A program made the position numbers and the translations under genes. From contig CAJTFH010000028.1 in NCBI GenBank assembly GCA_910575545.1, forward strand, positions 1-33,682: 33,682 nucleotides of DNA, written 5' to 3'. Of this stretch, positions 1 to 33,682 are shown one piece after another. Within the stretch, counting starts at the first letter, position 1. Each line of letters starts with the position of its first letter. The stretch comes from Bacteroidales bacterium. Its GTDB lineage: Bacteria > Bacteroidota > Bacteroidia > Bacteroidales > Muribaculaceae. The notes below the pieces were generated by a model. The model did not search any database and was not told the origin of the DNA. It saw only the letters and a program-made list of their open reading frames with translations.

Positions 1-87
1 GCTAAGGAAACAGGTGCAAAAGAGACTGAAAATTTACTTTTGCAATGGATGAAACAACAAAAAAATAATGCTAACAACGCAGGATAA
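1..87 (+). CDS. C-terminal end of an unidentified small protein (partial)
   Basis: The first reading frame is open from base 1 to a TAA at 85-87 and gives a polar, Lys/Gln/Asn-rich tail of 28 residues; the start is outside the window. I do not recognise the protein. Its stop codon lies inside the first hairpin repeat (70-115), so the gene end overlaps the repeat, as gene ends often overlap attC sites in integron cassettes. Codon use is AT-rich like the neighbouring small genes. It could also be chance reading into non-coding DNA, but the arrangement gene then hairpin is the same as for the next two genes, which favours a real gene end. Confidence 0.45.
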   Translation, partial: AKETGAKETENLLLQWMKQQKNNANNAG

Positions 88-115
88 CGGACAAGCCGTT
101 CCCTGCTAACCATTA
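70..115 (+). repeat. Intergenic two-stem hairpin repeat, copy 1
   Basis: This 46-bp unit matches 1376-1421 at 45 of 46 positions. It folds as outer stem GCAGG/CCTGC and inner stem AACGG/CCGTT around the loop ACAAG, with an asymmetric internal bulge. A direct GCTAAC lies on both sides. It separates successive small genes and contains the stop codon of the upstream one. See 730-774 for a diverged copy with the same fold. Confidence 0.85.
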
Positions 116-147
116 CCGATAAATGTTAAACCAATAAATTTAGAGAA

Positions 148-719
148 ATGGAAGATTTAGAAATAAAACAGGAAATAGAAAGAACAATCATCGCATTTTT
201 CACAGAAATGAATGGTTGGGAAATATATTGTGAAGATATAGACAACAATCCTGATTTGTCGGAAAAAGAAAAAACAGAATTGATGAAGTTGAAAATAAGT
301 TCTATTTTCAGCCAATTCTGTACCTTAAAGGACAGAAAAATGGGTTTACCGAATTGCCTTTCATGGGGACTTGAAGGCAGTTATAAATATGACCCCAGTA
401 AAGAAACTATCACAGACATAGAAAGAGTTACAAAAAACAAGTTCCATGTATACAATAGTTCGGTAAAATTTGCATATTCAATTGAATATCAATAAGATGC
501 AGCAACAATTCAATATCAATGCAAACTATTGTGTATCAGTGCGATACAGCTATGCCTGCTCAAAAATTACCGAACTGTTGTGTATATACATGTATCGAAA
601 AAGGATTGATGAAGGAACTTCATTGCTATGTCTGTGTATGTAAATCAAATCAGTGGCTTATTGATAGTAAAAAAAGAAAATGGGGCGATGATACAAAATG
701 GTCTAACATTTACTTATAG
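148..719 (+). pseudogene. NTF2-fold immunity-like protein, interrupted by a MITE
   Basis: The frame from 148 codes for about 101 native residues and then runs into a 128-bp inverted-repeat element (453-580), where it stops at 495. Removing the element and one copy of its 6-bp duplication (TGTATA) joins this frame exactly, without a stop, to the frame ending at 719, giving one protein of 145 residues. Its C-terminal part (YVCVCKSNQWLIDSKK, then KWGDDTKW) resembles the end of small NTF2-like fold immunity proteins linked to polymorphic toxins; that assignment is from memory of the family and is moderate. The native product is probably lost. The present frames 148-495 (115 residues, with a tail supplied by the MITE) and 519-719 (66 residues, with a MITE-derived start) would be hybrid peptides. 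It sits between hairpin repeats 70-115 and 730-774 like a cassette. Confidence 0.75.
453..580 (+). mobile_element. 128-bp MITE, copy 1, with 6-bp target duplication
   Basis: The element runs from CAATAGTTCGGTAA to TTACCGAACTGTTG, imperfect terminal inverted repeats of about 18 bp, with further internal complementarity. It is flanked by perfect TGTATA duplications at 447-452 and 581-586. It has no coding capacity for a transposase, so it must be mobilised in trans. The same 128 bp occurs in opposite orientation at 6587-6714 with only 3 mismatches. It interrupts the immunity-like gene 148-719. Confidence 0.9.
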
Positions 720-729
720 AATATATCGG

Positions 730-774
730 TAACGAAGCGTGATAACGCCTAATGGCGTTCCCCGCTATCCCATT
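730..774 (+). repeat. Intergenic two-stem hairpin repeat, copy 2 (diverged)
   Basis: Same architecture as 70-115 and 1376-1421, but with changed bases in both stems: outer AGCG/CGCT and inner AACGCC/GGCGTT around the loop TAAT. The base changes compensate each other, so pairing is kept. The right end CCATTA is shared by all three copies. It lies 10 bp after the stop of the gene ending at 719 and 17 bp before the next start codon. Confidence 0.75.
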
Positions 775-791
775 AGCTGTAATTATATGAC

Positions 792-1370
792 ATGAAAATC
801 TATGAGAATAAAATATTGAGAATACTTGGATTTATTTTTATTTGGATTTATGTATTCGGTATGGGCATTTGTTTTGCCAGAAGGTGGTATGCCATTGGAA
901 TACCGGGAGTGGTTTTATTACTTGTATGGTTAAATCACAATCTTATAGGTGCAGCTATTCGTAGATATAGAGCAAGGCAGGCAATCAAACAGATAAAAAA
1001 GCATGGAACACGATTATCGGTTGATTTAAGCCAATGTAAAGTCTGTGCGCAGAAATGGAGTAGCAAGAAATCAAGGATGCAAGAGCCAGTCTTTAAGGTA
1101 TTCAATTCATGGGAAACCCAGTTTTGGAATGGTGTTAGCGGCTCTTTGTTTCCTGACATTTATCATAGTGAACAAGTAGTGTCCACTGCAATATGCACCG
1201 TGACGTACACCACTCCATACAAAGGAAAGACAAAAACATTTCGCAGTGATGCAATTTTGAAGGAAAAAGTTTCATTGGAAATGCTATTGCAATATTATGG
1301 AGTGGCAACGATTTACATAAATCCGAAGAATGACAATCAATATTATTTTGATTTGGATTTTCTAAAATAG
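792..1370 (+). CDS. Membrane-anchored protein of unknown function, possible immunity protein
   Basis: This 192-residue protein has two hydrophobic segments near residues 8-28 and 33-52, then an Arg/Lys-rich stretch (RRYRARQAIKQIKKHG) that would stay in the cytoplasm. A soluble domain follows, with a likely beta-rich end (TVTYTTPYKGKTKTF, then ATIYINPKNDNQYYFD). I do not recognise a named family. The ATG at 792 follows hairpin repeat 2 and the gene ends 5 bp before repeat 3, so it occupies a complete cassette-like unit. AT-rich codon use sets it apart from the ICE core genes. Position and architecture (small, membrane-anchored, beside an NTF2-like gene) suggest a toxin immunity protein, but this is inference only. 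Confidence 0.75.
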   Translation: MKIYENKILRILGFIFIWIYVFGMGICFARRWYAIGIPGVVLLLVWLNHNLIGAAIRRYRARQAIKQIKKHGTRLSVDLSQCKVCAQKWSSKKSRMQEPVFKVFNSWETQFWNGVSGSLFPDIYHSEQVVSTAICTVTYTTPYKGKTKTFRSDAILKEKVSLEMLLQYYGVATIYINPKNDNQYYFDLDFLK

Positions 1371-1375
1371 ATATA

Positions 1376-1421
1376 GCTAACAACGCAGGATAGCGGACAA
1401 GCCGTTCCCTGCTAACCATTA
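1376..1421 (+). repeat. Intergenic two-stem hairpin repeat, copy 3
   Basis: Identical to 70-115 except for one base next to the inner stem (G for A). It folds with GCAGG/CCTGC and CGG/CCG stems and is bordered by GCTAAC on both sides. Its last base is the first base of the next start codon, so the repeat would also form the leader of the following gene. Confidence 0.85.
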
Positions 1422-1882
1422 TGAATAATAAAGGAATAAAAAATACAGATAACTATTTTGAACGAGTGAAGCAACGTGCAAACTGGACGAATTACAGATA
1501 CTATTTTTTTGACTACCTATATTTCAAAGGAGAGGTTTGGGGCAAGAAGATAGGACGGATGTCAGGTTTTATACTGCTGTTTTGGTATTGGTGGTGGATA
1601 GTAGTTCTGCCCGGCAACTTTCTCCTGATTAACAGTGTACCGCAATGGTCGTCCTTTCATCTTGGTTATTTAGGTACAATGTTTTTGCTTATTTGTGTAT
1701 TTATTCTTGCACGATACAGGAAAGCCCGTGTACAGGCATTGTTGAACCGCTACCGCCGCTCTAAGCATATCAGCGCAGTACAGGCATATTTTCTGTTCCT
1801 GCTGCCCTTTGTACTTTTCTTCTTAGAAACATGGCTGTTCGATGAATGGGGTTGGACGGATTGCGTGAGGTGGAACAAATGA
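1421..1882 (+). CDS. Multi-spanning membrane protein of unknown function
   Basis: This 153-residue protein has a charged, aromatic N-terminal segment and three hydrophobic stretches near residues 47-70, 78-97 and 117-135. The segment FWYWWWIVVLP is notably rich in Trp. A basic loop (RYRKARVQALLNRYRRSKH) lies between the second and third stretches. No family recognised. The start ATG overlaps the end of hairpin repeat 3, leaving no separate ribosome-binding sequence. An alternative start is the Met at 1559, which would remove the soluble N-terminus. It is the last gene of the AT-rich strip, and no hairpin repeat follows before the GC-richer AraC gene at 1911. It may be the first-inserted cassette or an old resident of the junction. 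Confidence 0.7.
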   Translation: MNNKGIKNTDNYFERVKQRANWTNYRYYFFDYLYFKGEVWGKKIGRMSGFILLFWYWWWIVVLPGNFLLINSVPQWSSFHLGYLGTMFLLICVFILARYRKARVQALLNRYRRSKHISAVQAYFLFLLPFVLFFLETWLFDEWGWTDCVRWNK

Positions 1883-1910
1883 TAAGTCATTCATATATAA
1901 AACATCAGAT

Positions 1911-2753
1911 ATGGAACAACGGATTACATCATTATTGCTTCCCGCTCCCGAAGCGGAGTTGGAAGCGTCCTGCAAGGAACTGGACGAAAAGGTAACATGG
2001 CTGCTGCACAACAGCCGGAAAATGGACAACTACTTGGAACTTGAACCGTTCAGCAAGGACGGGCGGCTGTGCGCCCACGTGTGCGACACGCTCAAAAGCC
2101 TGCCGGAAACGCCGACACTGGCGGCATACAAGGACTACAAGGCAATCATCATCCTGCTGGGTATATCCACCACACATTACGCCATACTGGACGAACTGGC
2201 GGAACAGCACCGCAAGCGGGACGACATACCCGAACTGACCGCCTACTGCGATGCGCTCCACTGGATGCGACCGGGGCGGCAGTACCTATGCAACGTGTAC
2301 AACACGGTATGCCACGCTTTCCACCTGCTGCGGAGAAACCCGGTAAGGGACAACCGACTGCTGGTGACGGAAAAGGAGCTGCGCCACGCCGAACGGATGC
2401 TGCCGGAACTGGGCAGGCAGACGTTCACCGAAATGGTACGTCTGAAAGGCTACATGGTCTATGATGCCGAGAAACTGGCGGACAAATGCGGCATGGAATA
2501 CGGCTCGTTCCGGCGCAAGGTAAAGAAAATGACCGGGTACACGGCTAAGGAATGGGTGATAAAGGAACGGGTAAAAGACGTGGAACACTACCTGACGAAC
2601 ACAAACCTCACGCTTACCGAAGTGGCGTTCACCACCGGGTTCGCATCGACATCGAACCTGAACGACTTCTGCAAGGCGTATCTTTTAGATACCCCCGGAG
2701 AAATACGCAGAAAAGCGCAGGAAACAAGAAAATGCACAGTTACAAGAACGTAA
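1911..2753 (+). CDS. AraC-family transcriptional regulator
   Basis: This 280-residue protein carries a C-terminal AraC/XylS double helix-turn-helix. The first helical pair is around residues 188-215 (KLADKCGMEYGSFRRKVKKM) and the second, more typical pair around 232-266 (LTEVAFTTGFASTSNLNDFC, then a region corresponding to the usual P-x-E-Y-R segment). The N-terminal 170 residues are helical and unlike a sugar-binding cupin, so the ligand, if any, is unknown. It sits 29 bp after the membrane gene and upstream of rteC, with a sharp change to GC-richer codon use at its start that marks the boundary between cargo and ICE core. It probably regulates ICE genes. The start at 1911 is the first ATG of the frame. 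Confidence 0.85.
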   Translation: MEQRITSLLLPAPEAELEASCKELDEKVTWLLHNSRKMDNYLELEPFSKDGRLCAHVCDTLKSLPETPTLAAYKDYKAIIILLGISTTHYAILDELAEQHRKRDDIPELTAYCDALHWMRPGRQYLCNVYNTVCHAFHLLRRNPVRDNRLLVTEKELRHAERMLPELGRQTFTEMVRLKGYMVYDAEKLADKCGMEYGSFRRKVKKMTGYTAKEWVIKERVKDVEHYLTNTNLTLTEVAFTTGFASTSNLNDFCKAYLLDTPGEIRRKAQETRKCTVTRT

Positions 2754-2791
2754 TGTGAAAAATCAAGAATAAAACAGAATTTTTATGCCCG

Positions 2792-2799
2792 TAACTTTG
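2792..2799 (+). promoter_or_regulatory. Bacteroidetes -7 box (TAACTTTG) upstream of rteC
   Basis: TAACTTTG fits the Bacteroidetes -7 consensus TAnnTTTG. Transcription would start near 2805, after the in-frame ATG at 2785 but before the ATG at 2827. This decides the rteC start in favour of 2827. Confidence 0.65.
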
Positions 2800-2826
2800 T
2801 GCTTCATAAAAGATAAGCACAAGGTT

Positions 2827-3687
2827 ATGGAACATAAGATACTGTTGGAAACATACTTCGCCGGACTGCTTCAAAAAGTGGAATGGCAGATACAGGAATA
2901 CGAGGACACCGCAACGGACACGCTGACGCTCTGCCGCCTGTGCGTGGACTACCTGCAAGAGATACTGGGCGAACTCAAAACCTTTATAATCTCCTACCCG
3001 TTCGCCAGCACGGAAGAGGAAATACACTTCTTCAAGGAACTGAAACCGCTTTTAGCGAGCAAAATCATCTATTACAATACCGTTTACAAGATAGAGGTGC
3101 GCTTCCCCAGCGGCAGCGAGGACGTGCAGCGGGACTACCTGCTGTCGGAAACCGACCGGATTTCAAGGTCGTTCCAGCGGAACTTGGCGTTCTACCAGTA
3201 CCACCGCACGAAAGCCACCTACTTGGACAGGCAGTATTTCATGCGTGGGAAGCCTGACATACAAATCATTGTGGACAGTTTCTATTACGAAACAGACCCA
3301 CAGTTCAGCACCAGTCACGACTTCAAGGTAGCCAAGATTTTAGCCAACGAACTGCTGGAAATATACCTCACCAACCGACTGCACGAGCTGGAACGCCGGG
3401 AACAGCGCAAGCGGGTGAAGAACGGCTTCACGGGAAAGGTGCTGCGCTGGACGGGGACGAAAAGGGCGTTGGTGGAGCTTGTCTACGCACTGCACGCCTG
3501 CGGCTGTCTGAACAAGGGAACGGTTGATATTAAGGAGATTGTAGCCTATTTTGAATACGTTTTCGACATCGACCTCGGCGACTTCTACCATACCTACATG
3601 GAACTCAAAGCCAAGACCAAAGACCGCACGGGCTTCCTCTCCACCCTGAAAGACAGGTTGCTGCTGCGCATGAGGGAGCAGGATTAG
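2827..3687 (+). CDS. rteC: RteC-like regulator of excision and mobilisation
   Basis: This 286-residue protein begins MEHKILLETYFAGLL and matches the RteC family known from Bacteroides conjugative transposons. In CTnDOT, RteC is made under RteA/RteB control and activates the excision promoter. Recognisable stretches are the region EEEIHFFKELKPLLASKIIY around residues 59-78, the middle segment YLDRQYFMRGKP around 131-142, and a basic patch ELERREQRKRVKNGF near 187-201. The frame is open from 2785, but a -7 promoter box lies inside that extension, so 2827 is chosen. A strong terminator follows at 3715-3750. No rteA or rteB is in the window; they would lie elsewhere in the element or be replaced by the AraC regulator. 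Confidence 0.9.
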   Translation: MEHKILLETYFAGLLQKVEWQIQEYEDTATDTLTLCRLCVDYLQEILGELKTFIISYPFASTEEEIHFFKELKPLLASKIIYYNTVYKIEVRFPSGSEDVQRDYLLSETDRISRSFQRNLAFYQYHRTKATYLDRQYFMRGKPDIQIIVDSFYYETDPQFSTSHDFKVAKILANELLEIYLTNRLHELERREQRKRVKNGFTGKVLRWTGTKRALVELVYALHACGCLNKGTVDIKEIVAYFEYVFDIDLGDFYHTYMELKAKTKDRTGFLSTLKDRLLLRMREQD

Positions 3688-3714
3688 GCAACCGTTCTTT
3701 AACAAAATTTATTT

Positions 3715-3750
3715 CGCCACAGGTGGGTTCGCCTGTGGCGTTTTATTTTT
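3715..3750 (+). terminator. Rho-independent terminator after rteC
   Basis: The stem CGCCACAGG/CCTGTGGCG with a short loop is followed by TTTTATTTTT. It closes the rteC transcript before the excision/primase unit. The inverted repeat lies just upstream of the next promoter, so it could also be read as a protein-binding site there. Confidence 0.9.
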
Positions 3751-3760
3751 CAGGACACCC

Positions 3761-3768
3761 GAACTTTG
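3761..3768 (+). promoter_or_regulatory. Likely -7 box (GAACTTTG) of the HTH-primase unit
   Basis: GAACTTTG differs from TAnnTTTG at the first base and lies 24 bp before the ATG at 3792. A weak -7 box would suit a promoter needing an activator such as RteC; that link is inference. Confidence 0.45.
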
Positions 3769-3791
3769 CGGCAAATCAATTAGTTACCATT

Positions 3792-4151
3792 ATGGAAATA
3801 ATAACATTCGAGTCCAAAGCCTACAAGGAGCTGGACAACAAGATTACCGCCATTGCCGACTACATCTTCAACCACGTGGAAACGGCAAGGCAAAGCGAGG
3901 AAGACATGTGGGTGGACAGCTACGAGGTCTGCACGTTCCTGAAAATAAGCGAAAAGACCCTGCAACGCCTGCGGGTGTCGGGGACTATCGCCTATTCCAA
4001 CATCAGGGGACGCTACTTCTACAAGGTCAGCGAGATACGCCGGATGCTGGAAGAACGCCTGATAAGGAGCAACAAGGAGAACATCGACAACCTGATAACC
4101 AACCACCAACTGTATGCTAAGGAAAGAGGAAATCTTAGAAAGGACAAGTAA
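3792..4151 (+). CDS. Small helix-turn-helix (excisionase/MerR-like) DNA-binding protein
   Basis: This 119-residue protein has a winged-helix/excisionase-type domain at about residues 40-90: WVDSYEVCTFLKISEKTLQR, then a short turn and the wing-like segment IRGRYFYKVSEIRRML. The frame extends upstream to 3723, but that part would begin inside the terminator and upstream of the promoter, so the ATG at 3792 is used. It overlaps the primase gene by 38 bp, suggesting coupled translation. Proteins of this size and fold in Bacteroides ICEs include the Xis2d-type excision factors of CTnDOT, which act with RteC-regulated excision. That functional identity is plausible from position but not proven by the sequence. 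Confidence 0.85.
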   Translation: MEIITFESKAYKELDNKITAIADYIFNHVETARQSEEDMWVDSYEVCTFLKISEKTLQRLRVSGTIAYSNIRGRYFYKVSEIRRMLEERLIRSNKENIDNLITNHQLYAKERGNLRKDK

Positions 4152-6186
4152 CGGGCTGGCGGTATTCAAACACTACCTGCCCGGCAACTGGCGCATAGGT
4201 CGCAACTTCCTTAACCCGCTGTACGAGGACAGCAAGGCTTCCTGCAACATCTATTTCGACCGCCGGGGCGGTATCTACAAGATGAAAGACTTCGGAAACG
4301 ACAGTTACAGCGGCGACTGCTTCTTCCTCGTGGGGCAGTTAAAGGGGCTGGACTGCAACCGGGCGGCTGACTTCGTGGAGATACTGGAAATCATCGACCG
4401 GGATTTGGGCTTGGGGCTGGCTTCCGGCACTCCGGTTTCCGTTTCTCCTGTAACCGTCCGCAGGGCAGTGCCGGACAAACCCGAAGAAACACCCGAAAAG
4501 CCCGTCAAGCCCTACCAGTTCCGGGAACAGAAGTTCCCGCTTGCCGAACTGGTGTACTGGCAACAGTACGGCATCACGCCCGAACTGCTGGAACATTACA
4601 AGGTCTGCTCACTCCGGGAATACAACAGCGAAACGGCAGAGGGCAAACCGTACACCTACACTTCATCGGTGGCAGAACCCATGTACGGCTACAAGGGCAA
4701 ACAACACATCAAGCTGTACCGCCCGTTCTCCACACCCCGCTTCCTCTATGGCGGCAGCTTCGGCGAAAACTACTGTTTCGGGCTGGAGCAGCTGCCCGCC
4801 AAAGGTGACACGCTCTTTATTACGGGTGGCGAGAAAGACGTACTTTCACTGGCGGCGCATGGTTTTCACGCTATCTGCTTCAACAGCGAAACGGTGACGA
4901 TACCGCCTACGCTGGTTTATCGGCTGACGTTTCGCTTCAAGCACATCGTCCTGCTCTTTGACATGGACAAGACGGGCAGGGAAAGCTCACGCAAGCAGGA
5001 AAAACTACTGGAAGAATTTGGCGTGAAACGCCTGCTACTGCCGCTTCCGGGAACGAAAGAGGAAAAGGACATATCCGACTACTTCAAAGCCGGGAACACC
5101 CGTGAAGATTTCCTGAAGCTGTTTATCGAATTTTTAGACAACCTGTATAGCGACACACTAATTATGCTTAAATCGTGCGAGATAGATTTCAACAACCCGC
5201 CCGCCAAAGCGCAAGAGATTATTTCGGCGGGTGACGTTCCGTTAGGAACACAAGGCAACCTGTTCGGCATTACCGGGGGTGAGGGAACGGGAAAGAGCAA
5301 TTATGTAGCCGCAATCGTGGCGGGCTGCATCTGTCCGGCTGGTGCGGAAGTAGATACGCTGGGCGTACAGATAACCGCCAACGGCAGGCACAAGGCGGTC
5401 TTACTTTATGATACCGAACAGTCGGAAGTACAACTGTTCAAGAATGTAAGCAACCTGCTGGCACGTGCCAAACAGCCGGACAAACCCGATGAACTGAAAG
5501 CATTTTGTCTTACAGGTATGTCACGCAAGGAACGCCTGAACGCCATTGTGCAGAGTATGGATAAGTTCTACTACCAGTACGGCGGCATCCAGTTGGTCGT
5601 CATTGACGGCATCGCAGACCTTGTGAAAAGTGCCAACGATGAAGCGGAAAGCGTGGCGGTGATAGATGAACTTTATCGGCTGGCGGGTATCTATAACACC
5701 TGTATTCTTTGTGTGCTGCACTTCGTCCCGAATGGCTTGAAGTTACGGGGACATTTGGGTAGTGAGTTGCAGCGTAAGGCGGCTACAATCCTTTCGATAG
5801 AGAAAGACGAAGAACCCGCCCAGTCGGTCGTGAAAGCCTTGAAAGTAAGGGACGGAAGCCCGTTGGACGTTCCTTTGATGCTCTTTGCATGGGACAAGGA
5901 AGCGGGGATGCACGTGTACAAGGGCGAGAAGCCCCGTGAGGAAAAGGAGAAGCGCAAGGAAAGGGAACTGGTGAATGTCGCACGTGACATCTTCGGTCGG
6001 CAGACACGCATCACCTATATAGACCTTTGCGAGCAGTTGCAGCAGGTCTTGGACATCAAGGAGCGCACCGCAAAGAGCTATATCCGCTTCATGCGGGAAA
6101 GGGACATCATCACCAAAGACACGGCGAACCAAAGCTGTTTTGTCATCGGTTCATATAATCTTCAAAGGAACGCAAGCTGCCCGTAG
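4114..6186 (+). CDS. TOPRIM primase-like protein with RepA/DnaB-type AAA ATPase
   Basis: This 690-residue two-part protein starts with a primase-type region (residues 20-70, including DRRGGIYKMKDFGNDSYSGD). A TOPRIM domain follows, with the conserved acid motif ITGGEKDVLSLAAHG near 236-250 and the metal-binding segment HIVLLFDMDKTG near 275-287. The second half is a RecA-like ATPase with Walker A GGEGTGKSN near 387-395 and Walker B LVVIDGIADL near 494-503. A short helical C-terminus may bind DNA. It would make primers and/or unwind DNA for ICE replication after excision or transfer. It begins inside the preceding HTH gene (38-bp overlap) and is followed by a terminator at 6226-6258. Similar proteins occur in many Bacteroides ICEs next to topB. 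Confidence 0.9.
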   Translation: MLRKEEILERTSNGLAVFKHYLPGNWRIGRNFLNPLYEDSKASCNIYFDRRGGIYKMKDFGNDSYSGDCFFLVGQLKGLDCNRAADFVEILEIIDRDLGLGLASGTPVSVSPVTVRRAVPDKPEETPEKPVKPYQFREQKFPLAELVYWQQYGITPELLEHYKVCSLREYNSETAEGKPYTYTSSVAEPMYGYKGKQHIKLYRPFSTPRFLYGGSFGENYCFGLEQLPAKGDTLFITGGEKDVLSLAAHGFHAICFNSETVTIPPTLVYRLTFRFKHIVLLFDMDKTGRESSRKQEKLLEEFGVKRLLLPLPGTKEEKDISDYFKAGNTREDFLKLFIEFLDNLYSDTLIMLKSCEIDFNNPPAKAQEIISAGDVPLGTQGNLFGITGGEGTGKSNYVAAIVAGCICPAGAEVDTLGVQITANGRHKAVLLYDTEQSEVQLFKNVSNLLARAKQPDKPDELKAFCLTGMSRKERLNAIVQSMDKFYYQYGGIQLVVIDGIADLVKSANDEAESVAVIDELYRLAGIYNTCILCVLHFVPNGLKLRGHLGSELQRKAATILSIEKDEEPAQSVVKALKVRDGSPLDVPLMLFAWDKEAGMHVYKGEKPREEKEKRKERELVNVARDIFGRQTRITYIDLCEQLQQVLDIKERTAKSYIRFMRERDIITKDTANQSCFVIGSYNLQRNASCP

Positions 6187-6225
6187 GCGTATGGGCTGAA
6201 CTTGTGTATTTTTAGGTGCTTGTGT

Positions 6226-6586: not shown

Positions 6587-6714
6587 CAACAGTTCGGTAA
6601 TTTTTGAGCAGGCATAGCTGTATCGCACTGATACACAATAGTTTGCATCGATATTGAATTGTTGTTGTATCTTATTGATATTCAATTGAATATGCAAATT
6701 TTACCGAACTATTG
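6587..6714 (-). mobile_element. 128-bp MITE, copy 2, inverted, with 6-bp target duplication
   Basis: The reverse complement matches the element at 453-580 at 125 of 128 positions. It is flanked by TACCTG at 6581-6586 and 6715-6720, a perfect 6-bp duplication different from that of copy 1. It is inserted 11 bp before the start codon of the RibD-like gene and so separates that gene from its native upstream region. Confidence 0.9.
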
Positions 6715-6725
6715 TACCTGACAAT

Positions 6726-7244: not shown

Positions 7245-7271
7245 AAAATGCGCCCGGTTCCCGCCGGGCGC
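7243..7271 (-). terminator. Terminator of the topB operon (minus strand)
   Basis: The perfect stem GCGCCCGG/CCGGGCGC is followed, on the minus strand, by ATTTTTT. The T-run is on the topB side only, so it primarily ends the minus-strand transcript. The opposite side leads into the recurrent leader motif at 7272-7293. Confidence 0.85.
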
Positions 7272-7293
7272 AACCACTAAAATTTCAATTATT
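7272..7293 (+). repeat. Recurrent leader motif ACCACTAAAATTTCAA, orphan copy
   Basis: The motif AACCACTAAAATTTCAATTA also stands before the DUF4099/DUF3945 gene (minus, 10760-10781), traE (21015-21036) and traN (28242-28262). Here it is followed by ATCACAATGA as at traE, but the frame that starts there has only seven codons before running into the end of topB. It looks like a leftover gene leader. Confidence 0.6.
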
Positions 7294-7340
7294 ATAAGTT
7301 ATAAAACCTATCACAATGAAATTTCAGCGGCAAAGATAGG

Positions 7341-33574: not shown

Positions 33575-33682
33575 ATCGAGTAGGTCGGGAAACGAAAGTT
33601 TTCTGACCTACTTTCGTTTCCTTTCCTCTCACACCACCGTACGTGCCGTTCGGCATACGGCGGTTTAATTTGTTTTCAAAGA
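33575..33682 (-). mobile_element. 3' end of a group II intron (domains V and VI), cut by the window edge
   Basis: On the minus strand, bases 33664 to 33633 form a typical domain V: lower stem ACCGCCGTA/TACGGTGGT, upper stem TGCC/GGCA capped by GAAC, and a two-base CG bulge. The triad region reads CGC, as in bacterial class C introns. GTGAGAGG follows, then a domain VI-like hairpin and an end CTACTCGAT at about 33575. The reverse transcriptase gene and the 5' part would lie beyond base 33682. Confidence 0.75.

Follow-up and report, generated by a model that had tools for sequence, protein, structure and literature searches.

How an array of small genes, each set off by a hairpin, comes to be assembled at the edge of a mobile element is the question raised by the first 1,882 positions of contig CAJTFH010000028.1, a 33,682-nucleotide (nt) stretch of a Muribaculaceae genome (Bacteroidales bacterium, GCA_910575545.1) that is here called the window. 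The window is the complete contig C28 of a 73-contig, 3.27-Mb genome. Ross et al. 2019 reportedly described recombinase-associated acquired interbacterial defence (rAID) gene clusters of Bacteroidales, and a sequence-only reading of the window had seen at its start the tail of such an array, lying at the cargo edge of an integrative and conjugative element (ICE). Comparison with related arrays makes it very probable that the window opens with the distal end of an rAID array, which integron-like site-specific recombination assembles and reorders as gene cassettes. The features seen in the sequence are the cassette unit and its ends, covariation within the hairpins, complementarity between short tags at the two ends of a cassette, mosaic arrays, one difference of a single cassette between two arrays, and an attI-like junction.

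Hairpins, tags and the limits of a cassette

Three hairpin units, given here as units running from TAAC to CCATTA, lie in this part of the window; all had been noticed in the sequence-only reading, and their ends are now refined (Table 1). Units 1 and 3 differ by a single base, being 45/46 identical over 70-115 and 1376-1421 as that reading had it, and unit 2 indeed has stems that are unlike the others and yet pair (AGCG with CGCT, AACGCC with GGCGTT). Folded as single-stranded DNA (+ strand), units 1, 2 and 3 reach -9.2, -9.4 and -6.7 kcal/mol, with z-scores of -4.4, -2.9 and -2.0; as good a fold was found in 0, 1 and 8 of 200 shuffles, respectively, so that unit 3, taken alone, is only moderately above chance. 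The single changed base of unit 3 turns an A-T pair into G.T. Each hairpin had been said to follow one small AT-rich gene. The composition bears this out, at 36.5% GC in window 1-1882 versus 50.1% in the remainder, but the gene before unit 2 consists of two open reading frames (ORFs; 148-495 and 519-719) separated by a repeated element of ~131 bp. The genome has 12 more copies of that element at 97-100% identity, including one at window 6587-6716 (- strand); the copy in cassette 2 supplies the last codons of the Imm-NTF2 gene.

A search with the recombinase of these arrays gave 36 distinct loci, on as many contig stretches of named genomes, chiefly those of Bacteroides, Phocaeicola, Parabacteroides and relatives (cited below by number); L052 and L053 were retained, though their recombinase matches are weak or partial. 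A simple unit pattern was found 208 times on the recombinase's strand (+) versus 4 times on the other (-). A fold-filtered scan gave 220 hairpin units in 33 of 41 loci, and 187 cassettes; the near-identical arrays L041 and L042 are counted in both figures. There are 136 unique units, which fall into widely different sequence classes.

For covariation, 37 units picked by eye from 62 de-replicated ones (120 eligible of the 136 unique) were aligned with the three from the window. In this alignment 347 of 400 stem cells are paired (86.8%), versus 31-53% with the partner slid and 62% with shuffling. All 10 stem pairs have changed on both sides, with 105 two-sided cells, 2 one-sided changes and 3 G.U cells; because the compensation is almost without G.U, a DNA fold is favoured over an RNA fold. 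When arms were swapped among seven classes, own arms folded at a mean of -7.0 kcal/mol versus -1.9 for swapped arms, the own arms being best in 6/7, one of the seven being a class with a single member that is probably a misread unit. The 5' arm has the more unpaired bases in 98/126 units. It is clear from the covarying stems, and from the loss of pairing when arms are swapped, that the fold rather than the sequence is conserved, as had been proposed by analogy with integron attC sites. A covariance model of the 40 units, the window's three included, finds exactly three places in the 3.27-Mb genome, all in the window, and, as the sequence-only reading had anticipated, many further units in related arrays.

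Read from CCATTA onwards, the next five bases are the reverse complement of those just ahead of the following TAAC, at the same gene's other end. Tag runs of at least five occur in 129/169 consecutive pairs of units, versus 5.5 when shuffled, and within a unit in only 2/205. A perfect 5-nt tag is carried by 141/187 cassettes, and 150/187 match at 4 or 5 of the 5 positions; 5000 shuffles of the same cassettes gave a mean of 5.5 perfect tags and a maximum of 16. The tags are varied, with 58 distinct ones in 116 cassette clusters, and share the loose form N-Y-R-R-Y. In L024 and L029 one cassette has TTC...GAA replacing TTA...TAA, a compensatory change one base further out. (A separate count, of 189 perfect tags in 233 cassettes, picked its units by tag matching and is not evidence for the tags.)

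By their position, the tags can only pair beside the hairpin once the cassette's own two ends meet, as they would in an excised circle. In circle-form folds an 8-bp outer stem closes; this is by construction, because only perfect-tag cassettes were used. At the real junctions 0.4 of 8 pairs are present on the top strand and 0.9 of 8 on the bottom strand. The bottom strand is the more stable in 109/124 circle-form sites. According to the available excerpts of PMC2727003, the R' and R'' boxes of integrons behave like such tags, their pairing often being extended to 9-11 nt.

To which gene a hairpin belongs can be read from 123 homologous cassette pairs, whose downstream units are 94.6% identical and upstream units 75.7%, compared with 72.7% for random pairs. 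In 53 of them the downstream unit is at least 90% identical and the upstream unit below 75%; the reverse is seen once, both units are conserved in 22 and neither in 5. Cassette 3 of the window is a case in point: it is 98.7% identical to L039:18568-19169, where the GCTGT tag stands at both ends, and its downstream unit is the same except for one base while its upstream unit is different. These identities indicate that the hairpin moves with the gene upstream of it.

The switch itself is sharp. Where the same cassette is followed by different cassettes (78 pairs), identity is 1.00 over the unit's last 5 bases and then 0.23-0.47 over the next 5. Where it is preceded by different cassettes (80 pairs), the upstream units are 0.35-0.86 identical until their invariant last 5 bases, and identity is 0.95-0.97 from the cassette's first base on. 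The pairs L041/L042 and L025/L071 were excluded from this boundary analysis. ATT is preceded by C in arrays and by A or C at attI, while the C following ATT travels with the downstream cassette in L024/L029; for both reasons the crossover would be confined to the three bases ATT. Cassette-specific terminal repeats, ownership of the hairpin by the upstream gene and the crossover point all go beyond the sequence-only reading.

That reading had also foreseen that related elements would differ by exactly one gene together with one hairpin, and one such case was found. The array of Bacteroides finegoldii L032 consists of cassettes A-B-C, that of Phocaeicola coprocola L040 of A-C. The two agree at 100% identity over A (421 nt) and over C (462 nt); they differ by exactly one 785-nt gene segment and one 46-nt hairpin, and the A-C junction retains A's hairpin. 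Furthermore, one cassette is present in 8 arrays in 7 different neighbourhoods. Duplicates also occur: L029 has a tandem duplicate cassette (99.7% identical over 1523 columns) and L039 has one cassette at two places (100% identical over 444). They bear on a question that PMC12247911, in the part available, asks, namely how an rAID array comes to hold two copies.

The array head and its recombinase

An upstream recombinase had been predicted. The same genome encodes, at C39:13407-14510, a tyrosine recombinase that shares 89% identity with the rAID-type enzyme of a close ICE relative; the next-best match in the genome is 38% identical over part of the protein only. Contig C39 (16,088 bases) runs from this gene through one further gene and an attI-like sequence to TTA-GCATT, and ends ~100 bases on. 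Its tail is 92% identical to the first 100 nt of a complete cassette of a relative, L020:15028-15677, which bears the GCATT tag; the last 69 nt of the same cassette match window 1-71 at 94% identity. The two contigs would then be physically joined, with cassette 1 spanning both. Since the genome has only three units and both contig pieces match one cassette, a single array of recombinase, attI, cassettes 1-3, terminal gene and ICE is the simplest reading.

In the related loci, conservation 3' of the recombinase gene extends as far as (A/C)ATT, after which comes the first cassette with its tag; in the attI test that tag was matched at the first unit in 21/34 loci. The attI-like site comes directly after the recombinase in most relatives. 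In this genome an unclassified gene of ~450 codons (L062:14510-15950) lies between the two. The attI-like region also bears one or two short hairpins (ACACC...GGTGT) just ahead of the entry point, for example in L024-L031.

The catalytic residues of the recombinase, R223, K247, H312, R315, H338 and Y347, are invariant in 23 aligned relatives. In the PDB the recombinase is matched best by IntI4 of Vibrio cholerae (2a3v, E 3.2e-36) and next by XerC-like and XerA proteins. As read from the alignments, 92 residues separate the catalytic arginines here, compared with 94 in the XerC-like 4a8e and 135 in IntI4; from this spacing, with the alignment breaking at that point, the IntI insertion is absent. 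Scores against TIGR02249 (integron integrase) are 191.5 and 197.6 bits, under the cut-off of 265, and against NF040815 they are 215.2 and 215.7 bits, under the cut-off of 220. The predicted model (predicted local distance difference test score 73.6, predicted template modelling score 0.50) has a small alpha/beta N-terminal domain at ~12-71 and a catalytic domain without an extra helix.

Cargo, surroundings and distribution

One protein from each of 115 of 142 cassette clusters was scanned against Pfam, longest ORFs that were reversed or of fewer than 60 codons having been dropped. The families overlap and include SMI1/KNR4 (8), SUKH_5 (6), SUKH_6 (5), Imm-NTF2 (5), PoNi_C (4), Tdi1_C (4), Imm5 (3), Imm43 (2), Imm11 (2) and others; two transposase families have one member each. 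Cassette proteins thus belong to immunity, not toxin, families, in line with the cargo that the sequence-only reading had expected. The longest ORF is forward in 189 of 233 cassettes. In the window, the gene of cassette 3 and the terminal gene match no Pfam family above the cut-off, and Rfam at gathering scores gives nothing at 1-1882.

The features of the array and its flank are collected in Table 1. The gene at 1421-1882 either marks a fixed distal boundary of the array or is itself a last cassette that has no site. In other loci, L010:12835-12881 and the last unit of L021 are weak, possibly chimeric hairpins before a terminal gene, as if the end of the array were frozen. The AraC-type regulator and RteC (1911..3687) are the first CTnDOT-like ICE genes flanking the array. 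Window 1880-6200 is 98.2% identical to 65083-69397 of NZ_OY725747 from Parabacteroides distasonis, where an array ends at the same place; gene order in that element is TetR, site-specific integrase, immunity-gene array, AraC, RteC, primase/helicase. Elsewhere in the window, an rteR small RNA (RF04181, 86.6 bits; 7246-7325, - strand) adjoins a topoisomerase-like gene, as in CTnDOT-type elements, and a Group II intron domain (RF00029, 48.2 bits; 33575-33665, - strand) sits at the contig's very end, so that the contig probably breaks at a repeated intron.

Table 1. Array features and flanking genes in the window (MITE, miniature inverted-repeat transposable element)
Feature	Position	Strand	Details
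3' end of cassette 1	1..71	+	gene cut at contig edge; stop codon within hairpin
Tag AATGC	67-71		cassette 1 end; reverse complement of GCATT opening first cassette on contig C39
Hairpin unit 1, attC-like site of cassette 1	72..115	+	R1 covariance model 53.1 bits
Cassette 2 body	113..729	+	terminal inverted repeat TTA-CCGAT (113-120) ... ATCGG-TAA (725-732)
NTF2-fold immunity gene in cassette 2, split by repeated element			PF15655 Imm-NTF2 E 1.7e-12 on 148-492
~131-bp MITE-like repeated element inside cassette 2 immunity gene	~451..581		27-nt inverted ends 446-472 / 561-587
Hairpin unit 2, attC-like site of cassette 2	730..775	+	R1 57.8 bits
Cassette 3 body	773..1377, gene 792-1370	+	ends TTA-GCTGT (773-780) ... 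ATAGC-TAA (1373-1380)
Hairpin unit 3, attC-like site of cassette 3, array's last	1378..1421	+	R1 48.9 bits
Membrane-like small gene past last hairpin, without own hairpin	1421..1882	+	
AraC-type regulator	1911-2753	+	PF12833 E 5.2e-16
RteC	2818-3687 as scanned	+	PF09357 RteC E 4.2e-79

A second clade of recombinases, of 47-48% identity, was found in Phocaeicola massiliensis (L064) and Parabacteroides gordonii (L069). Both head tag-matched arrays of a different hairpin family, ending ACATTA. A de novo chain detector, which requires perfect 8-mers at two neighbouring cassettes, gave 6 chained cassettes in L064 and 11 in L069, versus shuffled means of 0.2 and 0.3; it gives 0 for the window itself, where the tags of cassette 3 are mismatched. 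In L069 an array otherwise of second-family hairpins closes with a first-family unit (reverse strand, 168-215), which suggests exchange between the two recombinase systems. The detector gave no signal in Chryseobacterium L065 or Persicobacter L066 and 1 chain in Hymenobacter L067 (shuffles 0.0), so that by this test the more distant recombinases are without this architecture. Among 393 order-level genomes the first-clade recombinase is found in 3 and the second-clade recombinase, for which the set offers no positive control, in none at 1e-100. In viral_contigs there were 0 matches to the exact 35-nt unit pattern and no confirmed relative of the recombinase; 308 phage records hold only relatives of below 60% identity.

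Weighing the explanations

On the integron-like reading a cassette would be ^TT(A)-N5, one small gene, N5'-(T)AAC, hairpin and CCA^, where N5 and N5' are reverse complements that differ between cassettes; on this layout each cassette's site lies downstream of its gene, as in integron cassettes. The recombinase would excise the cassette as a circle, in which the tags would pair and lengthen the hairpin by 8 bp to give a folded single-stranded attC-like site. The outer stem of this site would correspond to the R box and the inner stem to the L box, with an unpaired spacer between them and the extra bases mostly on the 5' arm. The recombinase would act on this folded single strand, exchanging strands within the three bases ATT (cf. 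integron G^TT), and insertion would preferentially adjoin the recombinase gene. The array here would then run from the recombinase (contig C39) through attI, three cassettes and the terminal gene into the ICE.

Several observations weigh against this reading. The evidence is all comparative; no excision, circle or insertion has been seen, and homologous recombination between similar hairpins could likewise reorder cassettes. No sequence spans C39 and C28, whose link is inferred. Further pair types in the stem alignment number 20, which is not above the shuffles (20.5). A perfect tag is lacking in 46/187 cassettes, 37 of which match at fewer than 4 of 5 positions, and cassette 3 of the window has one tag mismatch; imperfect tags are explained partly by missed units, which fuse two cassettes, and partly by decay. 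In the attI test 13/34 loci were without a match (7 with no pattern, 3 with a hit elsewhere, 3 with no match). The longest ORF is reversed in 23/233 cassettes, and 21/233 have none of 40 amino acids. Finally, the recombinase is without the IntI insertion, which is thought to be needed for recombination of folded sites. That insertion is incompletely conserved within the integron-like subgroup of a recombinase classification (PMC8138268, in the part available), and its absence therefore does not place the enzyme outside that subgroup.

The absence of the insertion would also fit an enzyme that uses ordinary double-stranded core sites in the Xer or dif-module style, the hairpin being a mere spacer and the tags protein-read half-sites. 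The Xer-like spacing of the catalytic arginines and the loose consensus of the tags are both compatible with this. The tags vary widely in identity, however, while remaining complementary, and the stems of different hairpin classes likewise remain able to pair; it is therefore pairing, not sequence, that is conserved, and in duplex DNA the two tag halves are ~45 bp apart. Duplex sites of this kind are consequently unlikely.

It is very improbable that the recombinase is unrelated to the array and that homologous (RecA-type) recombination between similar hairpins exchanges the cassettes. Some classes of hairpin are almost uniform in sequence and turn up more than once in an array, and a few hairpins, such as the weakly folding last units of L010 and L021, look chimeric. 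Breaks made in this way would be expected inside the ~46-bp unit, often leaving chimeras; instead, the unit follows the upstream gene and the switch comes at the unit's 3' edge. Moreover, the two hairpins that flank the cassette gained or lost in L032 are of different sequence types, and the tags would be left unexplained.

Slimmer still are the prospects for hairpins that act as transcription terminators or RNA-processing elements between co-transcribed genes, the shuffling being a by-product of ordinary recombination. The hairpins do follow the stop codons of co-oriented genes and are good single-strand folds, but a T tract is missing: in 124/126 unique units no run of T in the 8 nt beyond the stem is longer than 2. 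RNA stems usually tolerate G.U pairs, and these are almost absent here, at 3 of the 347 paired cells. Furthermore, a 5-nt inverted tag at a gene's two ends, and not within a unit, is not explained by an RNA function. Rolling transposition or MITE-type insertion of a hairpin resembling a repetitive extragenic palindromic element is scarcely credible, for although the genome holds a dispersed 131-bp MITE-like repeat with one copy in cassette 2, the hairpin model finds three genome places that are all in this array, with one unit per gene moving with the upstream gene.

Some likeness can be found in other Xer-type systems. On CTX phage DNA, Xer recombinases act on folded single strands; they are a precedent for the use of a DNA hairpin by a Xer-like recombinase without the IntI insertion, but it is a phage genome that is integrated at dif and not gene cassettes of an array. 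The dif modules of Acinetobacter are small gene modules moved by Xer-type recombination at duplex XerC/XerD sites with fixed arms; they resemble the present cassettes in being small mobile gene modules and differ in those duplex, fixed-arm sites, and we know of no cassette-specific tags or covarying hairpins in them.

The crossover consensus of integrons is G^TTRRRY; here the site reads ATT followed by A/C-N-Y-R-R-Y. Other integron features are present: a sequence-variable, structure-conserved site downstream of each gene that moves with the gene, like attC; complementary boxes whose pairing is extended in the cassette's own site, like R' and R''; and a site next to the recombinase gene, like attI, at which cassettes would enter. 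As far as the available excerpts of PMC9024848, PMC2727003 and PMC6393395 go, integrons share the arrangement of a gene with a downstream site, an outer stem formed between the two ends of one and the same cassette, a 5' arm that bears most of the extra bases, a crossover box with AAC / TT and an attI-like junction beside the recombinase gene. They differ in that here the IntI insertion is absent, the recombinase scores below the integron-integrase cut-off, the crossover is ATT and not GTT, the tag extends 5 nt beyond TTA and the site is much shorter. Since the IntI insertion and the GTT crossover were both looked for and are both lacking, the array does not count as an IntI integron; in cassette, site and tag, rAID arrays appear to function as integrons do without being IntI integrons.

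The resemblance to rAID clusters is also close. In the available excerpts of PMC12247911 these comprise a tyrosine recombinase, co-oriented short AT-rich orphan immunity genes and conserved intergenic motifs, and lie on mobile elements; the present array has the recombinase at its head (given the probable contig link), AT-rich genes that include an immunity gene, and conserved intergenic motifs. Those excerpts make no mention of hairpins, integrons or cassettes, whereas the motif can here be broken down into a foldable site, the ends of the cassette, cassette-specific tags and a crossover point, and a second recombinase clade has a hairpin family of its own. A description of rAID units as integron-like was not found among the literature matches listed, which did not cover Ross et al. 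2019, where it may be given.

We lean, with some reserve, towards regarding rAID arrays as a second, non-IntI kind of integron, in which a Xer-like recombinase with its own N-terminal domain would act on folded sites of single-gene immunity cassettes, and a cassette-specific outer-stem tag would serve as a self-match check, completed only in the circle that the cassette itself forms on excision; the same logic would be common to at least two clades of recombinases that differ in hairpin family, and cassettes would pass between them. A group working on rAID calls the mechanism of rAID biogenesis an open area (PMC12247911, in the part available), and the anatomy described here turns the question of gene gain into a model open to direct test, in which cassette, site, crossover and candidate enzyme are all defined. 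The tags are, in addition, a precise tool with which to find and parse such arrays. An integron survey (PMC9024848, available in part) has one complete integron in the phylum, in Salinibacter. As the cargo consists of orphan immunity genes against the toxins of rival bacteria, the system would let gut Bacteroidales collect and reorder their defences; and if recombination at folded sites is true of it, the integron principle arose or persisted without IntI in these bacteria, where it would be devoted to defence against rivals.

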